Source of the DNA: a virus
Strand: one strand, 5' to 3'
Length of the DNA: 64,000 nucleotides
Virus record (IMG/VR): IMGVR_UViG_3300029914_000015
Location: 1-64,000 of that record
The translations under genes and the position numbers were made by a program. The notes under the pieces are model-generated. The model did not search any database. It saw only the letters and a list, made by a program, of their open reading frames with translations, and was not told the DNA's origin. Below are positions 5,428 to 61,914 of the stretch, piece by piece (position 1 is the first letter of the stretch; every line of letters begins with the position of its first letter).

Positions 5428-8310
5428 TTATTCATTAAAATTAAACGAAGTATATCCATTTTCTTTTGTAACAGTTAATACACTATTACACTTACTTATC
5501 AATTCATCTTTATGACTAATAATCCAAACATCTCTGTTTTGCTGTCTAGACATATCTCTTAATAGTTTAATGGCTGATTCTGTTCCTGAAACATCAATGC
5601 CAGCATCAATCATTTCATCCAATCCCAAAAGATTAATTTTTTGATATAAGCTTTCGTGAACATCTCTGAAAGCAAATGATAGTCCCAATTGAAGTCTCGC
5701 CATTTCTCCGCGAGATAAATTTCCAGGGCTCAATTCTCTTCCCAATTCACTTATATTAACATCTAAATCATTTTGAAATATTACTGTATGCGGAAGTCCC
5801 AATGCTGTTAGATAATAATCCAATCGAATATTTAAATAACTAAGATTTTGTTCAATAATCTTCTTTCTAATAAATGAGTCTTTATTAGTCAATAACTTCA
5901 TTAAAAATTCTTGATGGTCAACCAAACTTGAAAAAGCATTCATTGTAGATAAATCAATTGTTTCAATCGCAGTATTTTGCATTTCTGAAATCTGATCTTT
6001 ATATGGGTCGATTTCATTATATTTTTGCTCATACTGTTGAATCAAAAGATTTAATTTATTTTTATGTTCATAAACGTCAGATAGTGCATTATATACTTTT
6101 TCTTTTGGTTTAATAACATTGGGAATTATACTAAAAGAAGCCAACACTTCATTTATTTTATCATACCATTGTTGAATATCTTTTTCGGTTTGATTATATT
6201 CTTTTTTTATCTTTAATAATAATTCTTTATGCACATCATCATGAATTTTTTGATGGCACGTTTGGCAACATTGATTTTCTAAACTAAGCAAATCGTCATT
6301 TAACTTCATTAAAATTTTATTTTCTTTATTTAATGAAGTTTCATAATGTTTTTTCTGTTGTTCCAATTGCTCTTTATTAGCAGCAGCAGTGTTATACTCA
6401 TCCCAACTTGAATGAATTTTTATTTCTTCTTCAATGTCAATTTTAGAAAGGAAATCAATAGATTTCTCCAATTTAATTAATTCTTCATTTTTAGAACGCT
6501 CCCACAACTTCTGCCTTCTAATTAAACTATTAATCTGATCTTGTATTCTCTTGTTGGCTTCTTGGACGCTTTTAATACGAATATCTTCTTTTAACACATC
6601 TTCTTTTGCAATTTTAATTTCTTCTTTTAATTTTTCAGCTTTTTCGCTGAGTAAAGTAATTCCCAACAACTGTTCAATAATGGTTCTTTGGTCACTAACT
6701 TTTTGAAATAAGAAAGGCGTTGTATAAGTATTTAATGCAACAATTTGACAAAACATATCATGGCTCATATTCAAAATTGTTTCAATTTCTTTTTGAGTTT
6801 CCCGACTATCTCCTTGTGATGTATCGTTCAAATCTAAAGCAATATCTTTTTCTTCTTTCTTAATTCCATTTTCAAAAAATTCAAATACTCTTGGTTTTAA
6901 GCCTCGATTAATTATATATTCTTTGCCATCAGATTCAAATTCAATGGTGACTAACATATTTTTACCATTGGTTTTATTAATGAGATGTTCTTTCTTAATA
7001 TTGGAAATGGGCCATGAAAATAATGCGTAACTCAATCCATTCATTATAGTAGTATTATGAGTTACAACAAAATTATCAGTAACATATAAATGCTCTGGAT
7101 CATCAACCATGATGCACTGACATTCTTTTTTGCCAATAAATTCAATACTTTTTATTTGTGATCGCAACTGTGTTTCATATTGATATTTTTTTGATAATCT
7201 TTCTCTTTTTCTGGGTAGAGATACGATGTTACGCATATTATAATATCTAATATTTACATTATAGGAATCTTTACAAGGAACACGTTTTCCTTTATAACTA
7301 TATGTTTTATTTTTTTTATGAAAAATTCTAGCTAACCCTCCAATACTACGAACAATATATGTAATATCATTTGCTAGTTGTCTGCTTGTTGTGCAAATAG
7401 AGAAGCCTCCATTTTTTCCAATATAACCATTAGTGTCCATTAATCCAGCAAGTAATTCTTCTTTTTGCCTTACACTAGAAGATTTATAAATTTCTGGTAT
7501 AAATTTAGTATCACTATGCGTTCCGCATAAATTCAATTGTTTTATAATTCTATTAAATTTATTTGGATTTTTTAAAACGTTACTTTCATAATTATTATTA
7601 CTAACAACTCTATAATCATATAAATTAGTCGAATTACCTTTATAACTTAACGAACAATTAAATTCAGAATTTAATTTTTCATTCATTTTATTTTTCATAA
7701 ATTCATCAGCAGTAGTAAAAGTAACACTAGATGATACTGATAATCCTGCATAACCTAAAGTAGCTCCTAATAACCATGGATCGATAGGTAAGCATATATC
7801 CGATATATTTTCTGGTTTAATTAATGGTGTGTAAATATAAGCTGAAGGATTTTTATTTTCATATTTTTTTAAATGTTCTATAATTTCGCCTGTAGTTAAA
7901 ATACTTTCTTTATTAATATATTTTTTTGATGTAAATTTATGGCTATAAGTTTTCCATAAATGATCATATGAAGCCTCAACTGTTCTTCCATCAACAAAAG
8001 TAATAAGATAAGTATCAAGCATCCCTTGACCATAAATACCTGTTACTTTAGCTTGTTTACCTTTTGGTGTTATAATCAAATCATTTAAACATAAATCTCC
8101 CATTTTTTTCCAACCAGATTTTGTTAAAATATTAGATGTCAATGGTTGCGCCTTGCCGCATCCATTACGGCTTCCAGAATCTTCTCCACCCATATCTAAA
8201 TTTTCTCCAAGAACCAATACTAACTCTTCTCGATTAAAATTTAATGTTTGCGGTGCATTGCCAATACTTAGAAAATTTCGTAATGTCAAATTTTTAACTA
8301 TTATTGCCAT
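5428..8310 (-). CDS. gp46: Recombination endonuclease large subunit gp46 (SbcC/Rad50-like) with in-frame intein
   Basis: 960 residues, of which 54-419 are an intein; the spliced protein is 594 residues, close to T4 gp46. The Walker A loop is split by the intein: GSRNGCGK, then TTIMNGLSYALF after it. Other parts are a Q-loop region (FCQIVALNTYT), long coiled coils, a zinc hook CQTC at 682-685, the ABC signature (PGNLSRGEMARLQLG) and Walker B (LLGLDEMIDAG). With gp47 it resects DNA ends for recombination-dependent replication and repair. Its ATG overlaps the TAA of the macro-like gene by one base, so the genes are translationally coupled. No ATPase activity is expected before splicing. Confidence 0.95.
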   Translation of the reverse strand: MAIIVKNLTLRNFLSIGNAPQTLNFNREELVLVLGENLDMGGEDSGSRNGCGKAQPLTSNILTKSGWKKMGDLCLNDLIITPKGKQAKVTGIYGQGMLDTYLITFVDGRTVEASYDHLWKTYSHKFTSKKYINKESILTTGEIIEHLKKYENKNPSAYIYTPLIKPENISDICLPIDPWLLGATLGYAGLSVSSSVTFTTADEFMKNKMNEKLNSEFNCSLSYKGNSTNLYDYRVVSNNNYESNVLKNPNKFNRIIKQLNLCGTHSDTKFIPEIYKSSSVRQKEELLAGLMDTNGYIGKNGGFSICTTSRQLANDITYIVRSIGGLARIFHKKNKTYSYKGKRVPCKDSYNVNIRYYNMRNIVSLPRKRERLSKKYQYETQLRSQIKSIEFIGKKECQCIMVDDPEHLYVTDNFVVTHNTTIMNGLSYALFSWPISNIKKEHLINKTNGKNMLVTIEFESDGKEYIINRGLKPRVFEFFENGIKKEEKDIALDLNDTSQGDSRETQKEIETILNMSHDMFCQIVALNTYTTPFLFQKVSDQRTIIEQLLGITLLSEKAEKLKEEIKIAKEDVLKEDIRIKSVQEANKRIQDQINSLIRRQKLWERSKNEELIKLEKSIDFLSKIDIEEEIKIHSSWDEYNTAAANKEQLEQQKKHYETSLNKENKILMKLNDDLLSLENQCCQTCHQKIHDDVHKELLLKIKKEYNQTEKDIQQWYDKINEVLASFSIIPNVIKPKEKVYNALSDVYEHKNKLNLLIQQYEQKYNEIDPYKDQISEMQNTAIETIDLSTMNAFSSLVDHQEFLMKLLTNKDSFIRKKIIEQNLSYLNIRLDYYLTALGLPHTVIFQNDLDVNISELGRELSPGNLSRGEMARLQLGLSFAFRDVHESLYQKINLLGLDEMIDAGIDVSGTESAIKLLRDMSRQQNRDVWIISHKDELISKCNSVLTVTKENGYTSFNFNE
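7054..8151 (-). mobile_element. Intein in the gp46 P-loop, class 3-like, with LAGLIDADG domain
   Basis: 366 residues (54-419 of the host protein) separate GCGK from TT of the Walker A motif. The intein starts with Ala rather than Cys or Ser, ends VVTHN, and is followed by Thr. It shows the W-C-T set of class 3 inteins as I know it: Trp two after the block B His (YDHLW, W119), Cys in block F (CQCIMVD, C399) and Thr before the final HN (T417). Splicing would start at the block F Cys. A LAGLIDADG pair is present, LLGATLGYAG and LLAGLMDTNG, but the first lacks the usual Asp (Tyr instead), so cutting activity may be lost. Confidence 0.88.
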
Positions 8311-9827: not shown

Positions 9828-10775
9828 ATGCGTATTTATACAACTACTGATTTCATATTATCGTCTATTTCTAAACATAATAATGAATTGCTTTCTTATG
9901 AAAAAACTATTTTCACTAGTAAAAACTCCAAAGTAATTATTACTTGCAAACTTCACGGCGATTTTGAGCAAATAGCAAAAATTCATTTGAAGGGGCATAG
10001 TTGCCCTCAGTGCGGCCATAATTATCGAGCCAATTTAAATAGATTAACCACTGAACATTTTATTAATGATGCTAATAAAATTCATAATTTTTTCTTTTCA
10101 TATGATAATTCTTTTTATATTGGTAGAAATCGCAAAATAACTATTACTTGTCCCTTTCATGGTGAGTTTAATCAAATGGCAGGAAATCATTTAAATGGCT
10201 TTGGGTGTCCCAGTTGTTCTGGTTGCAAAAAATTAACAACTGAAGAATTTGTAAGAAAAGCCAATATTAAACATAATTTTAAATTTGATTATAGCAAGTC
10301 AATTTATATAGGTGCTCATTCAAAAGTTATTATAAGTTGCCCAGAACATGGTGAGTTTACTCAGAAACCAAATTGTCATTTATCTGGCGCTGGCTGTCCT
10401 GTGTGTAAAGAATCAAAAGGAGAACGAGAAATTCGCATAAATCTTAAAGAATTAAAAATGAATTTCAAATACCAATACTCTTTTAAAAATTGCAAAAATA
10501 TAAAACCACTGCCATTTGATTTTGCATTATTTAATAATAAAAAATTAATTGGTCTAATAGAATATCAAGGTATACAGCATTATAAAGTAGGTTCTTTTGG
10601 TAGTAAATCAAAATCAATAGAAGATAAAATTAAAGATTTATATGAAATTCAATCTAGAGACTTAATTAAACTAAATTATTGCAAAACAAATAAAATTCCT
10701 CTTTTAATTATTCCTTATTGGAATCTGAGTAATATCAAAAATATTTTGTCTAATTATTCATATCCACCATCATAG
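9828..10775 (+). CDS. Zinc-repeat, Vsr-like free-standing endonuclease
   Basis: 315 residues, complete. Three zinc-type repeats (each with CxxHGxF then CPxC, for example CKLHGDF and CPQCG) are followed by the nuclease-like module: PFDFALF, IEYQGIQHY and IPLLIIPYWN. GGAGGAA precedes the ATG. It lies between the divergently placed gp47 and the convergent gp55, overlapping the gp55 end by 22 bases. Codons 3-5 (ATT TAT AC) carry, on the other strand, a perfect late promoter octamer at 9833-9840. Function as a homing-type mobile endonuclease is inferred from the motifs and the repeated copies in this window. Confidence 0.75.
   Translation: MRIYTTTDFILSSISKHNNELLSYEKTIFTSKNSKVIITCKLHGDFEQIAKIHLKGHSCPQCGHNYRANLNRLTTEHFINDANKIHNFFFSYDNSFYIGRNRKITITCPFHGEFNQMAGNHLNGFGCPSCSGCKKLTTEEFVRKANIKHNFKFDYSKSIYIGAHSKVIISCPEHGEFTQKPNCHLSGAGCPVCKESKGEREIRINLKELKMNFKYQYSFKNCKNIKPLPFDFALFNNKKLIGLIEYQGIQHYKVGSFGSKSKSIEDKIKDLYEIQSRDLIKLNYCKTNKIPLLIIPYWNLSNIKNILSNYSYPPS
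9833..9840 (-). promoter_or_regulatory. Late promoter TATAAATA on the minus strand inside the endonuclease start
   Basis: The complement of bases 6-13 of the endonuclease gene is TATAAATA. It points toward gp47 and would add late transcription to the gp47-macro-gp46 operon. The same placement recurs at 48771-48778. Confidence 0.6.
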
Positions 10776-11617
10776 CTATTAATATCTTTATTTGTGCGCG
10801 AATAGCTGGGATTCATAGAATTTTTTATAAGCAGATCATCTCGTATCTGCTGATTTTTCTTTTCAATATTTAGTATTCGTAAGAAAGAGTTATGACATAT
10901 AGATGTAAAAAATGCAAAAGGATTGGCTGATTTTGATTCATCGAACTGAAGGGCTACTTGGCAAAGTTGCATTACTGCCTGACCTTTAAATTCTTCAACA
11001 TAAGAATAATTTCTCCAGTTTCCTTTACTCGCATATTTGTCTGTTAATTTCATAATCATTCTTGCCAAAGTATCTGTAAAATATCCGTGAGTCTTGCAAA
11101 ATTGTCCATTATCCAAATCTCCAATCCAATGACTTTTAGCAACTACACGCAAAATATTATTTTCATCAAATCTATAATTGTAAAACGGAGGGAAATTAAT
11201 TCTAATATGGTCAGCTTTTAAATTACTCAGCGGCACAATATTTAAACTTTCCAAATCATCATCTTCATCTTCTAAAACAAAATCATCATTGTCAATTACA
11301 CTATCAAAAAATCTATCTATACTTTTTCCTGGAACAATTTCAGCCAACATCTTTTCTGATTTAGAAATTTTCGGAGGAAGCATTGGTATGTGTTCCCAAG
11401 TCATAATTCTAAAAACTAAATTAGTTGTTGGTAAGTTGTCTATATTTACTTTTTCTCCAGTTTCTCTTAAAATTCTGGCTACTTTGTTTTGCTTTGCTAA
11501 AATAATATTTTGATAATTTATTTCTTTAGTGTCAAATAATATTATATCATATTGGTGATCAGTTTCTTTGTTTAGAAATGAACAAAACGTATTCTTTGAA
11601 AGATGAATTTCTTTCAT
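10754..11617 (-). CDS. gp55: Late transcription sigma factor gp55-like
   Basis: 287 residues. The C-terminal half is clear gp55: SHWIGDLDNGQF, GNWRNYSYVEEFKGQAV, LQFDESKSANPFAFFTSI and NSFLRILNIEKKNQQIRDDLL, the region 2-like core that binds RNA polymerase and reads the TATAAATA box. T4 gp55 is 185 residues; here about 140 extra residues precede it, including LPTTNLVFRIMTWEHIP and an acidic linker (FVLEDEDDDLES). The extra part may bind a partner or be a lineage-specific extension. Its presence agrees with the many late promoters in this window. The 3' end overlaps the convergent endonuclease gene. Confidence 0.9.
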   Translation of the reverse strand: MKEIHLSKNTFCSFLNKETDHQYDIILFDTKEINYQNIILAKQNKVARILRETGEKVNIDNLPTTNLVFRIMTWEHIPMLPPKISKSEKMLAEIVPGKSIDRFFDSVIDNDDFVLEDEDDDLESLNIVPLSNLKADHIRINFPPFYNYRFDENNILRVVAKSHWIGDLDNGQFCKTHGYFTDTLARMIMKLTDKYASKGNWRNYSYVEEFKGQAVMQLCQVALQFDESKSANPFAFFTSICHNSFLRILNIEKKNQQIRDDLLIKNSMNPSYSRTNKDINSYDGGYE

Positions 11618-35937: not shown

Positions 35938-36531
35938 ATGAAAATATTTGAAGTAATTGATCCTTTAAATTTCAACTCGATAAAAGAATTTATAGAAATC
36001 AATTGCTCAGATATACTTAAATTTTATAAAGAAACTGGAAATATGCTATATCGAGGCATAAAAAACAATAAACCATATTTAATTAACAATCCTGTTAAAT
36101 ATAGAACACCAGTAGATACTCCTGTGAACATTCAATATATAGTAGATGTGAAACTTGAGGCAGCAGGATTTACAGCATTAAGATCAAACAGCATTTTTTG
36201 TTTTGGAAATTCTTATAATCCCAAATTTTATGGTAGAGTATATATGGTTTTTCCTTTCAATGGTTTTTCATATACTTGGTCTTTAAAAATTAAAGATTTA
36301 TATGACGACTATGCTAGTGTATCTATGTTTTCAGGTAAAGCAATTAAAGATATGGAAAATATGTCTCCAAAAGAAGTCGTTGATATTTTTGATTTTGTTT
36401 CAACAAATTTAAAAACTGCTTGTAATACTCCCAATGAAATACTAATTCATGGAAAATGTTTATTAGTAAACGCTGAATTATATGAAAATAAAATAAATAA
36501 ATTTATCTCTTTTTATTATTATCCCAATTAA
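35938..36531 (+). CDS. ADP-ribosyltransferase-like accessory protein, paralog 1
   Basis: 197 residues, tag-like start MKIFEV. Family signature in order: LYRG with R39, FTALRSNSIFCFG around residues 78-90, YGRVYMVFPFNGFSYTW around 98-114, and NEILIHG with E167. These fit the R-S-E layout of ADP-ribosyltransferases (Arg on strand 1, Ser motif on strand 2, Glu near the end), but the match is by eye. Five related genes lie at 52197, 53312, 53908, 54704 and 60505 (minus). This copy is separated from them, directly after the fibre gene. If packaged, it would act in the host at injection, as T4 Alt does. Confidence 0.5.
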   Translation: MKIFEVIDPLNFNSIKEFIEINCSDILKFYKETGNMLYRGIKNNKPYLINNPVKYRTPVDTPVNIQYIVDVKLEAAGFTALRSNSIFCFGNSYNPKFYGRVYMVFPFNGFSYTWSLKIKDLYDDYASVSMFSGKAIKDMENMSPKEVVDIFDFVSTNLKTACNTPNEILIHGKCLLVNAELYENKINKFISFYYYPN

Positions 36532-36571: not shown

Positions 36572-37879
36572 ATGATTAAATTTGTATCAGCGTTGTGTGG
36601 ATCAGGAAAGACAGAATTTGCATTAAATCTGTCAAAAGAACTCATTAAAAAGAAAATGAGAGTTCTTTTCGTTTGTCCATCCCTCGAATTACAAAATGAA
36701 ATATCTAAAAGATTAAATAATACACCACATCGTATTATAAATTATAAAAATACGATTGCTGGCCAAGGAGTAGTAGGATCAATTGAAAAATATCTGCGAC
36801 GACCAGCAAAATATGAAATTTTAATTATTACTCATGCTTCATTTAAATCCATTTCTCATTTTCCAAATAAAAAAAATTGGACTGTATTTATAGACGAAGA
36901 GACAGAAATTTTTGATTTTATGTCTTTTAATTCTTGCGATGCAGCAAATTATGGGTATGGCAATGATCTAATTGAAGATATGTTAAAAATAAGCACATTC
37001 TCTTTAAATGAAGGCGGATTTACGTCAATACAACCCAAATCATTATCCAAATCAGATAAAGGTTATTTAAAATCAATTTCATATGGCGGGAAAGATAGTA
37101 CATATGTATATCCTCCATTTCAAAAATTTATTCAGCATTTATTAAATCCAAATATGGCACTATATGGCGATACTACAACAATGGTTGCTTTTCGTTTTGG
37201 AGACACAAATGCAGAAATGTGGGCTGAATTAGATACTAATATTTTTGAGGATTTCGCTGATTTATATTTAATGGGAGCAGAGATTCAAAGAAGCAAATTG
37301 GCTGCATATTTAAATTTAAAAGGAATTAAAACTGAAAATTTATTAATATCAAAAAGGTTTGAAACTCACGATCAACCTATTATAATTAAATGGATGACAA
37401 CACATTCTCCATGGAGCAAAAATTATTATAATGAACCAAATAAAATTGAATCCACAGTTACTAATTTTGAATTATATGACATGTTGGTTGGTTTAACCAT
37501 TGGAGAAGAAGAAATACTAGTGCAAAATAATATTGGAAATCCATTTAAGCATATAAAAAATATGATTCAAATGAATTTTGAGATTAAGGGATTAAATAAA
37601 TATAATAATTATGCTCACTATGCTGAGTCAGGTGCTTACAATGTCCCGCCAGCTTGCAATAAAAAAATGACAGATTTGGGTTTTGATATGGAAGAATTGC
37701 AGTTGCATCATGCATTATCTCACGCATATCAAGGATTTCTTAGGTCGAGTATTAGGAATAATATATTTTTAAATAATATTATGTTTCTTCCAACTGAGCA
37801 AATGGCAATGAATATGAGAAATATATATTTTCCCAATGCTGCTGTCTCACAAATAGAGGGAGCAAAATATTTTTTTTAA
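36572..37879 (+). CDS. DEAD-like helicase/ATPase
   Basis: 435 residues. Walker A is CGSGKTEFAL (K13), motif Ia-like is VLFVCPSLELQNEI, and Walker B is TVFIDEETEIF, together an SF2-type helicase N-terminal domain. TGAG-type motif III and a clear C-terminal motif VI were not identified, though ALSHAYQGFLRSSIRNN near the end could be a divergent version. The likely role is nucleic-acid unwinding early in infection. It is expressed from its own perfect host-type promoter, unlike its late neighbours, and its message should be leaderless. The exact substrate is unknown. Confidence 0.7.
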   Translation: MIKFVSALCGSGKTEFALNLSKELIKKKMRVLFVCPSLELQNEISKRLNNTPHRIINYKNTIAGQGVVGSIEKYLRRPAKYEILIITHASFKSISHFPNKKNWTVFIDEETEIFDFMSFNSCDAANYGYGNDLIEDMLKISTFSLNEGGFTSIQPKSLSKSDKGYLKSISYGGKDSTYVYPPFQKFIQHLLNPNMALYGDTTTMVAFRFGDTNAEMWAELDTNIFEDFADLYLMGAEIQRSKLAAYLNLKGIKTENLLISKRFETHDQPIIIKWMTTHSPWSKNYYNEPNKIESTVTNFELYDMLVGLTIGEEEILVQNNIGNPFKHIKNMIQMNFEIKGLNKYNNYAHYAESGAYNVPPACNKKMTDLGFDMEELQLHHALSHAYQGFLRSSIRNNIFLNNIMFLPTEQMAMNMRNIYFPNAAVSQIEGAKYFF

Positions 37880-37906
37880 TGTATAGCAATTTTGATGTTT
37901 AGGTAG

Positions 37907-37914
37907 TATAAATA
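37907..37914 (+). promoter_or_regulatory. Late promoter TATAAATA with no gene behind it
   Basis: A perfect octamer, predicted start near 37920, opening a stretch of about 1 kb without a convincing protein gene. It therefore probably drives a non-coding RNA. Confidence 0.65.
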
Positions 37915-37919
37915 GAATT

Positions 37920-38520
37920 AATATGGAAGATACATGGCAAGTAACAATTACTTTTATGGCTTAAATTATGGTGAAGTAAACAATTACTTTTATGGCTTAA
38001 ATTATGGTGAAGTAAACAATTACTTTTATGGCTTAAATTATGGTGAAGTAAACATGGCGAAATAATACAATTTGAGTAATAAAAGTAATCGACTTTCAAA
38101 CTATGTCTTTTTAGTTTCGATTTCAGTGGTAAAGAATTACTAGGCGGGTCCAACCTTCAATAGTAGCTATCATGGCTTGAGTAAAGTGACAGAATAGAGT
38201 GGGAAAGAACATAAGATAATCTTCAATAACCCACAAAAATATATAATGTTAATGAGAACTGTTATATATTTTGCGCTGTTAGTAAAATTATTAATATAAG
38301 TCGTAATACAGGCTTTGAGGGATACAGGATAGCCATCCCAAAATTCAAAGAAGATACGCTGGGTTTATACACAAAAAGTGTCCAGTTTATAATGCAAATA
38401 GTATTATAAGACGGTTGTAATATCAGTGATCGTTGTGGAGTTTGAAATATTAAAATTCTCATATAATATATTATTTTGATATATTATTTTTCCGCAAAAG
38501 ACGCCCAATGGCGTTCTTGT
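37920..38520 (+). ncRNA. Candidate structured non-coding RNA of about 600 nt
   Basis: Bounded by a late promoter (37907) and a hairpin terminator (38496-38525), with no convincing frame inside. Strong local stems: 11 bp AAAATATATAA (38236-38246) with TTATATATTTT (38262-38272); CTTTGA+GGGAT (38313-38323) with ATCCC (38335-38339) and TCAAAG (38345-38350); CTGG and ACAC (38359-38372) with GTGT+CCAG (38378-38385). The 5' part holds three 36-bp repeats. Base composition is less extreme than in nearby intergenic DNA. Size and position recall the large ornate phage RNAs (ROOL, GOLLD), but I cannot assign a class. Confidence 0.45.
37945..38052 (+). repeat. Three perfect 36-bp tandem repeats
   Basis: Unit of 36 bases starting CAATTACTTTTATGG, three identical copies head to tail with no spacers, preceded by a partial copy from about 37940. 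Each unit can fold (TTACTT with AAGTAA). The unit length is a multiple of three, but every copy contains TAA in one frame. Confidence 0.9.
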
Positions 38521-38525
38521 CTTTA
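38496..38525 (+). terminator. Hairpin terminator, possibly bidirectional
   Basis: AAGACGCC (38498-38505), loop CAAT, GGCGTTCTT (38510-38518) with one bulged T, then a T-rich stretch. The minus strand also reads as stem plus CTTTT. Confidence 0.55.
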
Positions 38526-38579
38526 AATAAATCTAAATTTTTAAAGCGTTTTATTAAAAAATAATCATTATTAAAAAAT

Positions 38580-38950
38580 TATTGAGTGCGTAAGCACGAA
38601 ATAATTTTATTTATAATTAGTATTTTTTGTAGGCGAACAGAGCGAAGCGAATGTTCGCTCTACGACAAAATTAAATATATAAACTCTAAAAATAAATAGT
38701 GTTCTTAAAAAGAAAGAACTGGCCATAATTATATCTCTAATTCAAGAGATTAAATATTTGTTTATATAAATGTTGGTATTATTTTTCTTGGACTTCGGCT
38801 TCGCCCTGTATTGCTTCGCAATACAGACAAAGGCTAAAGGAATTAACTCGTTTTTCCTTGGGCTCGTGTCGCTCCGCTCCACTGCGCCAGTCAAAACTCG
38901 TTTATTGGTTTGCTTCGCCCCATTTCTTTTTTTGAAGAACCAAAGGTTTA
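38580..38950. repeat. Cluster of GC-rich palindromes in a gene-free stretch
   Basis: Against an AT-rich background this stretch holds several GC-rich inverted repeats: GTGC-GTAA-GCAC (38586-38597); GCGAACA (38633-38639) with TGTTCGC (38652-38658); CTGTATTG-CTTCG-CAATACAG (38806-38826). The word GCTTCGC or its complement recurs (38644, 38797, 38812, 38922 areas), with CGCTCCGCTCC near 38870. Open frames across it on both strands are by-products of the palindromes. It looks like imported or mobile palindromic repeat DNA; no function is visible. Confidence 0.6.
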
Positions 38951-38961
38951 TTCTTTTTTTG

Positions 38962-38969
38962 TATAAATA
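38962..38969 (+). promoter_or_regulatory. Late promoter TATAAATA, leaderless
   Basis: A perfect octamer, five bases (CTTAT), then ATG at 38975. It ends the palindrome region. Confidence 0.7.
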
Positions 38970-38974
38970 CTTAT

Positions 38975-39436
38975 ATGGAAATAGATATATTAGATACTGG
39001 TCATTGGATTGCCCCATGGAAATTTGATGTAAATAAATTTGTTGGATTTCAATATAGAATTACTCAAATCTCTACAAATAGACAATATATCGGCAAAAAA
39101 TTTTTTTATTCTATAACAAGAAAAATAGTCAAAAACAAAAAAAATAGAAAAAAAATAATTAAAGAATCAAATTGGAAAAACTATTGCGGGTCGTGTAAGT
39201 GGCTTCTATCTGAAATAGAAAAGTGTGGAAAAGAAGATTTTATATTTCAAATAGAATCATTGTGTGAATCTCGATCAAATCTTGCATGGAGAGAAGTAGA
39301 ACGATTAGTTAAAGAAAATGTGTTGAGAGAGAAATTACAAGATGGGAGTCCAAAGTACTTTAACGGAATCATTCCGCCAGTAAAATTTAAAATTTGTGAA
39401 GAAACCCAAAATGAAAAGGAATATAAAATTGATTAA
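38975..39436 (+). CDS. GIY-YIG-like nuclease
   Basis: 153 residues. FQYRITQISTNRQYIGKKFF is a GIY-YIG variant (YRI followed by YIG). ESNWKNYCGSCKWLLSEIEKCG and AWREVERLVKENVL carry the charged residues (the Glu of WREVE) expected for the metal site. This compact type is common in T4-like marine phages, where it is annotated as a Seg-like or unknown nuclease. The late, leaderless start suggests a role late in infection, such as DNA packaging or junction trimming, rather than pure homing; that is speculation. Confidence 0.65.
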   Translation: MEIDILDTGHWIAPWKFDVNKFVGFQYRITQISTNRQYIGKKFFYSITRKIVKNKKNRKKIIKESNWKNYCGSCKWLLSEIEKCGKEDFIFQIESLCESRSNLAWREVERLVKENVLREKLQDGSPKYFNGIIPPVKFKICEETQNEKEYKID

Positions 39437-47361: not shown

Positions 47362-47369
47362 TATAAATA
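47362..47369 (+). promoter_or_regulatory. Late promoter TATAAATA, leaderless
   Basis: A perfect octamer, five bases (TAAGT), ATG at 47375. Confidence 0.75.
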
Positions 47370-47374
47370 TAAGT

Positions 47375-47893
47375 ATGAAGATTAATGAAGTCATTATCGA
47401 TAATGAAAATGGATTAGGAGGAGTTTCATATAATCAAGAAATTGATTATCTTGGTCTTAGAGTGCTAATGTATCCATCCACATTTTTAAGCCTAGCATAT
47501 TATAGAAGTCGAAACGATTTAGGAAATGTTGACTATATAAAAAATTATATTAAAAATGGTGGGACTATTGGCGCTCCATTCCTTCAAATAAGTATTCCTA
47601 ATAGATGGGAGAATGATGATTATTCTATTCCATCCATAGTTATTGGTCATGAAGGAAGAAATAGAATGATGGCACTCGATGAACTTCAAGATGAAGGATT
47701 AGAACCTGATGTGCCAGTTGAAACTCATTTATTGTTTTATAAATATAGAGCCAGGCATTTAAAACCAGAATGGATAATACAATTAAATAAACAACTTTAT
47801 AATCAAAATACAGAATATGAATATCATTCTGGAGAAGTGGCTTATACAGATAGCCCTATAACCAAAGGGCCATTGTTTAAGGTTGTAAATTAG
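47375..47893 (+). CDS. ParB/sulfiredoxin-like tagged protein
   Basis: 172 residues, start MKINEV. IDYLGLRVLMYPSTFLSLA, GAPFLQISIP and VIGHEGRNRMMALDEL form the pattern; the GHEGRNR box resembles the GxxRxx nucleotide loop of ParB/Srx-like folds. I recognise the same layout from unannotated T4-like phage proteins. A related box (ILDGFHRTISAKIRGD) is in the next plus-strand protein. The function (nuclease, CTPase or kinase-like) is not decided. Its 3' end overlaps the convergent endonuclease gene by 17 bases. Confidence 0.55.
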   Translation: MKINEVIIDNENGLGGVSYNQEIDYLGLRVLMYPSTFLSLAYYRSRNDLGNVDYIKNYIKNGGTIGAPFLQISIPNRWENDDYSIPSIVIGHEGRNRMMALDELQDEGLEPDVPVETHLLFYKYRARHLKPEWIIQLNKQLYNQNTEYEYHSGEVAYTDSPITKGPLFKVVN

Positions 47894-53911: not shown

Positions 53912-54723
53912 AAATAAACGAAATCAGTAAAAAAATAAAGATTGGAATGCATCCCTCAAATGAGCCAGAAGATAAAATTGTTCAGTTCATTAAGAAAAAC
54001 TGTTCTCAAATTGTAAAAGTTTATGAAAACAGTCATAGTAATTTTTTATTCAGTGGGAAAGAGTCTTATAGTGATGTATTTTTTGGCAAACCTATTAATA
54101 ATAGAGCACCACTGGGAACAGACCGCAAGATCAATAATAAATTAAATAGTGTTCTAAGACAAGTTGGATTTAAAGCACGACGAGATAATAGTATTTTTAC
54201 TACTTCTATGGAAGTTACAGCGCAGGAATATGGCAAAGTATATATAATTTTTCCATTGAATGGTTTTGACTATTCGTGGTGTGCTCTTGCTGAAGATTTA
54301 ACTATGGAGTTTGATATTGGCGAAAAAAAATATAGTGTCTCCAGAGAGAATAATGAATTTTACAATGATTTGATTACATTGCTGCCACAAGAGTTTGTTC
54401 AAAAATATCATTTTAAAAATAATGAAGGATTTGAATATGCATTGACAAATGGATTTGAAATTTTGATACACGGAAGTTATGTTGCAATTAGCGAAGAATC
54501 TTCTTTATTAGAAATAATATTACCATTTTATAGATTTAATGAAGATAACGATTTAGAAGAATCAGCATCGTGCGGATCAACTAGTTCTGGATCGATTGCA
54601 ACTGTCAACGGAACAAACACTCCTCCATCTGGGCAATTTTTTGGTGGAGATCCTAATAGTTCAGTATATGGAAAAATTAAGAGAAATCGTAGGAGAAGAA
54701 AGAATGCTACTCCGAGAGTTTGA
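53908..54723 (+). CDS. ADP-ribosyltransferase-like accessory protein, paralog 4, with basic C-terminal tail
   Basis: 271 residues from ATG 53908; start MKINEI. Core: FKARRDNSIFTTSME, YGKVYIIFPLNGFDYSW, FEILIHGSYVAISE. The first motif is FLFSGK, lacking Arg. Residues about 220-271 are an added tail rich in Gly/Ser (CGSTSSGSIATV) ending in a basic patch (KIKRNRRRRK), which could bind nucleic acid or the packaged genome. The last 20 bases overlap paralog 5, whose AGGAG ribosome site lies in the region coding for the basic patch. Confidence 0.5.
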   Translation: MKINEISKKIKIGMHPSNEPEDKIVQFIKKNCSQIVKVYENSHSNFLFSGKESYSDVFFGKPINNRAPLGTDRKINNKLNSVLRQVGFKARRDNSIFTTSMEVTAQEYGKVYIIFPLNGFDYSWCALAEDLTMEFDIGEKKYSVSRENNEFYNDLITLLPQEFVQKYHFKNNEGFEYALTNGFEILIHGSYVAISEESSLLEIILPFYRFNEDNDLEESASCGSTSSGSIATVNGTNTPPSGQFFGGDPNSSVYGKIKRNRRRRKNATPRV

Positions 54724-55591
54724 TTTGGATATGTCAAAACTAAGTTCAGGAGATGTTAAAGAAATCAATGCTAATGTTGAATCTTTATCTCTATGGATAA
54801 AAGATCATTGTTCAGAATTTTTGAAAATGAAAGGAGCAAATGATCTCGTTCGAGGTGTTAGAGAAAACTCACCAAGTATTTTTATGGGATATCCAAGAAA
54901 AAATAGAAGAAGTATTGAAGGAGAAATATCTACTGAGCTTACTAAAATAGTAGACAAATATATGCAAATGACTGGTTTTACTGCTCTTCGAGGAAATAGT
55001 TTATTTTGTAATAGTGATCCTGAAATGGCTGAACCATGGGGTGAATTATATGTCATATTCCCTATAAATGGATTTACTTTTGCGTATAGTAAACGACATA
55101 CTTGTTGTTCAGGGGCAAGTTATATATTTCCAACAGAAGCTATTGACGAAAATTTACGCACATATGTAGACCAAATTTCTGATTTTTGGAATCGTAAAAA
55201 ATACGATGTCCATGGATATTCAGAAAATATAAAAAAATTTTTAAAATATTGGTATACTCTTAATGAGTTTTATTCCAAAAAAGTAAATTATTTTAATATT
55301 ACTACAGTAATAAGAAATATTATTAAGACGTACAATTCTTTTACTAACGACGAAAAGGTTATGTTATCTGGTTCAGTAGTTGATCGTGCAATTATTGATC
55401 TTGGAAGAGAATTGAAACAGTTAGGAACAGATGAAATAATTGCTAAAAAATTCATAGTAAACAATAAATTGACCAATAAAAATTTGAAATGGGCTTTAGA
55501 AAATAGCTATGATGTGTGGATTCACGGAGCATATATTGCCATTGACAGAGAATTATATATACATAATTTTGATTTATTTGAAAAACTATAA
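54704..55591 (+). CDS. ADP-ribosyltransferase-like accessory protein, paralog 5, with helical insert
   Basis: 295 residues from ATG 54704 (AGGAG upstream; the frame is open further up but only over the previous gene). Start MLLREF. Motifs: DLVRGV with Arg, FTALRGNSLFCNS, WGELYVIFPINGFTFAYS, and YDVWIHGAYIAID, where Asp stands for the usual Glu. Between the third and last motif is a 130-residue helical insert (FLKYWYTLNEFYSKK, VDRAIIDLGRELKQLG) not found in the other copies. It closes the co-translated cluster that began at 51938. Confidence 0.5.
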   Translation: MLLREFDLDMSKLSSGDVKEINANVESLSLWIKDHCSEFLKMKGANDLVRGVRENSPSIFMGYPRKNRRSIEGEISTELTKIVDKYMQMTGFTALRGNSLFCNSDPEMAEPWGELYVIFPINGFTFAYSKRHTCCSGASYIFPTEAIDENLRTYVDQISDFWNRKKYDVHGYSENIKKFLKYWYTLNEFYSKKVNYFNITTVIRNIIKTYNSFTNDEKVMLSGSVVDRAIIDLGRELKQLGTDEIIAKKFIVNNKLTNKNLKWALENSYDVWIHGAYIAIDRELYIHNFDLFEKL

Positions 55592-61311: not shown

Positions 61312-61323
61312 TATATTTTCCCA

Positions 61324-61914
61324 TCAGCTTGCATAAGGATCAGTTATAACAATTGTTCCGTCTTTTCTCTGCATAATATTGCCGCCATGCATGTCATTGG
61401 AAATATATGGATTTTTGATATTGTGTTTAAATTTTCCAATAATTCTGAGTGCTGTAACTAATTCTGGATTTTGTTTTAAATAATCAAGTTGCGTATGAGA
61501 TGTATTAAAAAATGTTAGTGATGAATATGGACAATCTATTATTTCACTAAAAACATTAGCTAAATGTTTCATTTCAGAACGTACATCATCTAATTTCTCA
61601 ATAAGATATATGTAATATCGACCACCATTAACTTCTATAAATTTCAAATCACTTATTTTTGGAAAATGTTTATTGTTATATTTCTTTATTAAAGATACAT
61701 ATTGTGCATACGCAGTATCTTGTCTATCATTAACTTTTAACACATAAGATTTTTTTGGATTTGAATATACTGTACTATAATAACCAGCCCCTAGAAGAGT
61801 CCAACCCAATTTTTTTAATTTGCCTTCTATGGTATATTTATCAGTACTGCGATCAAACACAATTTTAGAAAATTTGGCTGGTATTCTCGTTTTTGAATAT
61901 TCGTCTAGTTTCAT
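61324..61914 (-). CDS. Kinase-like tagged protein, paralog 3
   Basis: 196 residues from ATG 61914 (GGGGG site), start MKLDEY, nearly the same as paralog 1. GAGYYSTVYSNPKKSYVLKVN, KFIEVNGGRYYIYLIEKL and DMHGGNIMQRKDGTIVITDPYAS give loop, hinge and catalytic parts. It aligns with paralog 1 over its whole length, including the LKFIEVNGGRYYIYLIEKL stretch, so the pair arose by a fairly recent duplication and inversion. It is intact where paralog 1 is interrupted, which makes it a good reference for the missing base there. Confidence 0.6.
   Translation of the reverse strand: MKLDEYSKTRIPAKFSKIVFDRSTDKYTIEGKLKKLGWTLLGAGYYSTVYSNPKKSYVLKVNDRQDTAYAQYVSLIKKYNNKHFPKISDLKFIEVNGGRYYIYLIEKLDDVRSEMKHLANVFSEIIDCPYSSLTFFNTSHTQLDYLKQNPELVTALRIIGKFKHNIKNPYISNDMHGGNIMQRKDGTIVITDPYAS

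Follow-up and report, generated by a model that had tools for sequence, protein, structure and literature searches.

What occupies the longest interval without a convincing gene in this stretch of phage DNA? The DNA analysed here (the window: 64,000 nucleotides, part of an 80-kb IMG/VR record) contains an interval of 1,095 bases, positions 37880-38974, in which two short minus-strand frames were discounted. The interval follows an ORF for a DEAD-like helicase (36572-37879) and precedes a SegE-type GIY-YIG gene (38975-39436), which is followed by genes for DnaJ and a ClpA-like ATPase. An earlier sequence-only reading had proposed for this place a dedicated non-coding RNA, expressed late and some 600 nt long.

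The genes nearby are similar to those of large T4-related phages. Relatives of ClpA are found in RaK2, PA5oct, Atu_ph07 and Phosso, and the phage also encodes a baseplate wedge protein and SbcCD-like nucleases. Elsewhere in the window, an SbcC/gp46-like protein (5431-8310, minus strand) carries at residues ~48-420 an inserted segment with a LAGLIDADG homing-endonuclease domain, which is probably an intein. Two related proteins (35938-36531 and 54596-55591) both match PHROG 11975, whose function is unknown, and two more long stretches without a convincing ORF (53912-54595 and 61312-61864) could give room for other RNAs.

Contig 3300028859_000024 is identical to the window phage. Comparison was made with three relatives: L004, whose RNA is 79% identical to that of the window and in which octamer, terminator and folded middle recur together; L013, which carries the RNA at the same locus; and L014, which probably carries a homologous RNA. 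The identical contigs L090-L093 represent the same phage as L013 and were not counted as independent; certain distinct homologs besides the window number at least two (L004 and L013). Searches with Rfam covariance models, suggested earlier as a check, gave no family match in the window or the three relatives at gathering and permissive thresholds (gathering score across the window and, for the region and the relatives, E values as high as 10 / 5).

The octamer TATAAATA is present at 37907-37914, as the sequence-only reading had placed it. Across the whole window the octamer is without overall enrichment (19 found, 21.1 expected). Besides the copy at the RNA, six of the 19 lie just upstream of an ORF, the highest figure for any of the 56 words sharing its composition. 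The phage encodes, at 10757-11617 on the minus strand, a T4 gp55-like late sigma factor (PHROG E 3e-63). The same octamer stands upstream of the L004 RNA (L004:85-92), and GATAAATA stands upstream of that in L013 (L013:4040). At the other end, the terminator claimed at 38496-38525 was found as a hairpin (38500-38515) plus a U-rich tail, and is the only terminator-like site within 37850-39000, where 0.3 would be expected. The terminator hairpin recurs in the relatives, and the tail motif GCGUUYYUGUCUUUAAA is shared by the window and L013, with close variants in L004 and L014. We infer late transcription from TATAAATA, with an expected start at about 37920 and an end near 38525; late expression of the RNA is predicted with reasonable confidence. 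The features of the locus are as follows.

37907-37914, plus strand: predicted T4-type late promoter TATAAATA (sequence, same octamer in L004, late sigma factor, promoter-like placement).
37920-38525, plus strand: whole predicted non-coding RNA, about 605 nt (promoter-terminator frame, no conserved frame, homologs, covariation).
37943-38054, plus strand: a 36-nt unit in three perfect tandem copies, all of which include the 5' strand of helix P1.
38018-38089, plus strand: helix P1, formed by the last repeat and the stretch at about 38068-38089; L004 retains an equivalent.
38087-38122, plus strand: hairpin H0, 11 pairs, with four compensatory changes relative to L004; it begins within the final bases of P1.
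38128-38141, plus strand: hairpin H1 with AGAA loop; stem GUAA/UUAC in the window, GUAG/CUAC in L004, AUUG/CAAU in L013.
38142-38156, plus strand: hairpin H2, AGG/CCU.
38165-38177, plus strand: hairpin H3 around UAUCAUGG; stem AGC/GCU, GAC/GUC and GCC/GGC in three phages.
38199-38234, plus strand: helix H4, GUGGG/CCCAC, enclosing hairpin H4b.
38236-38272, plus strand: long hairpin H5, then UUGCGCUG.
38279-38315, plus strand: hairpins H6 and H7; L004 has the same pairs, hence no covariation information.
38319-38339, plus strand: hairpin H8, GGGAU/AUCCC; UA becomes UG in L004.
38344-38446, plus strand: helix PJ (38344-38349 with 38441-38446), closing a junction around H9, H10 and H11.
38463-38487, plus strand: hairpin H12, with two compensatory AU to GC changes.
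38500-38525, plus strand: intrinsic terminator, the hairpin GACGCC-CAAU-GGCGUU (38500-38515) followed by the U-rich tail CUUGUCUUUA.

That the transcript would encode no protein was upheld, though the repeats do contain a plus-strand frame of 47 residues (43 from ATG), MASNNYFYGLNYGEV...NMAK, with a plausible ribosome site, GGAAGA, ahead of its start codon. Were this short peptide the product, the folded part would be its 3' UTR. The frame is open in the window, but in L004 the same start meets a stop after three codons, blastp gives only a 9-residue shared match (E 0.2), and L013 is without the repeat region, so that a peptide gene is most improbable. No open frame is cleanly common to the window RNA and a relative.

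The three 36-bp repeats described earlier are indeed perfect copies. Each pairs equally well with the stretch around 38068-38089, forming 20 pairs with a single interruption at -17.9 kcal/mol, and in L004 the equivalent of P1 has changed letters, a shifted register and one such strand only. Any of the repeats thus seems able to serve as the 5' strand of a single long helix, and we infer that they are a slippage expansion of one helix strand. Copy number differs between the window (three) and L004; L013 is without repeats, yet the core is kept. A CRISPR array was rejected, as there are no spacers. Phage PhiTE escapes ToxIN by expanding pseudo-ToxI repeats (PMC3475682), and the present RNA resembles that system in having tandem units within a phage non-coding RNA at variable copy number (PMC3475682). 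The units might accordingly form an RNA decoy or antitoxin mimic, the remainder carrying or stabilising them: three perfect tandem units have the 36-nt ToxI unit length, and the copy-number difference from L004 has the PhiTE precedent. Of the marks of ToxI-like type III antitoxins, however, the tandem repeats of ~36 nt were found and an Rfam antitoxin family match was not. The units here, unlike those of ToxI and PhiTE, are P1 strands within a larger RNA with no evident pseudoknot, and the persistence of the core in L013 without repeats also speaks against a decoy, which we consider very unlikely.

Structure was assessed mainly by covariation. The curated structure comprises 94 pairs in 17 helices, 100% paired in both the window and L004 with none broken. 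In the alignment of the two it shows 13 two-sided compensatory and four one-sided changes. The 13 two-sided changes compare with a shuffled mean of 6.4 (0 of 500 shuffles reach 13) and with at most one in slid structures, a statistic that is optimistic because the helices were chosen with both sequences in view. When pairs were predicted blind from a single sequence, 51-53% of changed pairs were kept versus 22-46% in coding controls, a modest excess over coding regions. In an exhaustive helix scan, eight helices had at least two double changes; 60 shuffles averaged 1.25 such helices and never exceeded 4. There are 17 G-U and no A-C pairs in the structure, which points to the plus strand as the RNA.

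The description of the region as strongly folding is moderately true: z is -2.4 for the whole RNA and for 38296-38445, but the conserved 5' core reaches only -0.7. The evidence for structure lies in covariation and not in folding energy. Of the stems proposed earlier, 38236-38272 and 38359-38385 exist and persist in L004. The stem at 38313-38350 persists only in its inner part, GGGAU/AUCCC at 38319-38339; the outer CUUUGA/UCAAAG loses two of its six pairs in L004, where its 3' strand has 38441-38446 as partner instead, and this pairing shows a compensatory change. A kissing contact of the H2 loop with the H8 loop covaries between the window and L004 but not in L013, and is not claimed.

A covariance model of H1-H5 (R1) was built from the window and L004, with L013 left as an independent test. 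R1 scored 61.3 bits on L013 (E 5.5e-12), where a sequence-only model scored 31.0 bits; about half of the score comes from structure. On L014 the best-scoring position for R1, at 12.3 bits (E ~0.006 over 0.9 kb), lines up with UUGCGCUG and H2, and the sequence-only model found nothing there. A model of the 3' half recognised neither L013 nor L014, and thus this half either diverges fast or is not shared. By-eye matches of H8-H12 in L013 and L014 are not claimed, the 3'-half model failing on both. By sequence comparison, the 5' core (H1-H5) appears conserved and the 3' half poorly conserved beyond the nearest relative, with a varying number of repeats. It had been anticipated that homologs lacking the stems would speak against the RNA; most stems are kept, while the outer half of one is lost and the 3' half is unrecognised in L013 and L014. 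The suggestion to build a new model from related phages and look for compensatory changes yielded the 13 compensatory pairs and L013 at the above E value; these, together with recurrence of the promoter-terminator frame in L004, support a dedicated late non-coding RNA. We consider it very probable that this is a genuine structured non-coding RNA. That the locus is a stand-alone, structured, late-expressed non-coding RNA gene of ~600 nt, representing a new family of a small clade of T4-related phages, is our main reading, with a probability of roughly 0.6.

The arrangement RNA, GCTTCGC-rich spacer, SegE, DnaJ, ClpA is found in at least four distinct phages, counting L014 as probable; in L014, more GIY-YIG frames sit between SegE and DnaJ. 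The upstream gene varies, being the helicase (36572-37879) in the window and a small probable lipoprotein in L013 (2707-3303) and L014 (1-585), which indicates that the RNA stays with SegE-DnaJ-ClpA and not with its upstream neighbour. Between the terminator and SegE lies a second conserved non-coding block (window 38530-38960), 82% identical to L004, dense in GCTTCGC/GCGAAGC mini-hairpins and without an additional terminator-like site. Its counterparts are L013:4460-4876 and L014:980-1320. The motif NATAAATA occurs in the window at 38962-38969 and 47362-47369, and at L004:1097, L013:4879, L014:1292 and L011:4841. It stands only a few to ~30 bases before start codons (~5 for the window SegE and the ORF at 47375). 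If it is a promoter, leaderless or nearly leaderless late messages would result.

The constant position upstream of SegE, and the conservation of the hairpin-rich spacer as well (82%), would also suit control of SegE by a long 5' leader or spacer whose hairpins serve only as terminators and mRNA-stability elements. Such a leader would be interrupted by the terminator at 38500-38525, however, and in the relatives a separate NATAAATA motif stands a few bases ahead of the SegE start. Moreover, L010-L012 (ClpA 61% identical) keep SegE-DnaJ-ClpA with no match to the RNA. A leader is therefore unlikely. Neither L011 nor L101 gave a match to the RNA, and the spacers of L016, L018, L020, L021, L064 and L065 contain small ORFs and not the RNA. 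INPHARED phages searched with the window and L013 RNAs gave chance matches only or none, and genome contig records searched with two RNA patterns gave none. With the helicase as anchor, only the phage's own contig was recovered, with no tblastn match in named phages. On the matches listed in the distant ClpA and SegE scans, which may miss further clade members, the known range of the RNA family is a small clade of large T4-related phages.

GIY-YIG genes flank the RNA, SegE lying downstream in all cases, and in L013 a second one runs right up to the 5' side of the RNA. Such placement might suit a mobile ribozyme in degenerate or divergent form, for example a group I-like intron remnant tied to the adjoining homing endonucleases. 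The 5'-side endonuclease is, however, found in L013 only; the Rfam group I intron core was not recognised in the window or relatives, and no Rfam intron model matched the three homologs; and the RNA interrupts no gene, lying between complete genes with its own predicted promoter and terminator. An intron remnant is accordingly highly doubtful. Covarying structure with no shared frame, as looked for in large structured phage non-coding RNAs, was found, and the RNA is most likely a new family of this known kind and not ROOL, GOLLD, a group I intron or a type III antitoxin, since a defining test gave a negative result for each.

How might such an RNA act? In the window, 11-13-mers complementary to phage messages are no commoner than same-strand ones, which favours action by fold. 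No RNA-guided nuclease is annotated among the neighbours, and no tRNA gene occurs in the 64-kb window. With no family match, antisense signal, tRNA or RNA-guided nuclease neighbour, the best guess is a late RNA acting by its fold. The RNA would be transcribed late from TATAAATA, ending near 38525, and may, though of this we are much less sure, accumulate to high copy late in infection. It would then act through its fold as a scaffold, a self-assembling RNA or a protein- or ribosome-binding RNA, like ROOL, GOLLD and the ICP1 RNA, and not by base-pairing to a message, with the 5' core H1-H5 as the conserved working part. By analogy, a scaffold or binding type of action is put forward tentatively. 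More speculative is a hairpin core, independent of ROOL and GOLLD, that would self-assemble or bind host translation or phage assembly machinery and be tuned by the number of 36-nt repeats supplying interchangeable helix strands. Large structured phage RNAs are few and their roles open, and a new family would provide another independent case for asking what they do. This one has a predicted late promoter, a conserved core that is compact, and neighbours that are known, and it supplies a covariance seed for finding more such RNAs.

ROOL is often, but not universally, found near tRNA genes, whereas the present RNA has no tRNA nearby. ROOL is a large, ornate, orf-less RNA of phages or prophages, of unknown function and reported to be very abundant (PMC12286853), and both it and GOLLD, likewise a phage RNA, assemble into cages (PMC12286853). 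The earlier note had compared the size of the RNA with these two, claiming no direct match; the likeness is indeed one of size and setting only, and the Rfam ROOL and GOLLD models matched neither the window nor the relatives. Like ROOL, this is a large orf-less phage RNA, here predicted from sequence; unlike ROOL, it consists largely of short hairpins in series, and one junction is supported. The most abundant transcript of ICP1, a lytic phage without tRNAs, is an orf-less RNA of ~800 nt (PMC7567579). The window RNA, which gave no nucleotide match among phage records, likewise has its own orf-less intergenic space in the absence of tRNAs, with expression known for ICP1 and predicted here. GOLLD rises during lysis and has one conserved and one variable half (PMC12286853). 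The window RNA, with no tRNA island, resembles it in having one conserved and one variable part, the conserved part being 5' here and 3' in GOLLD (PMC12286853).
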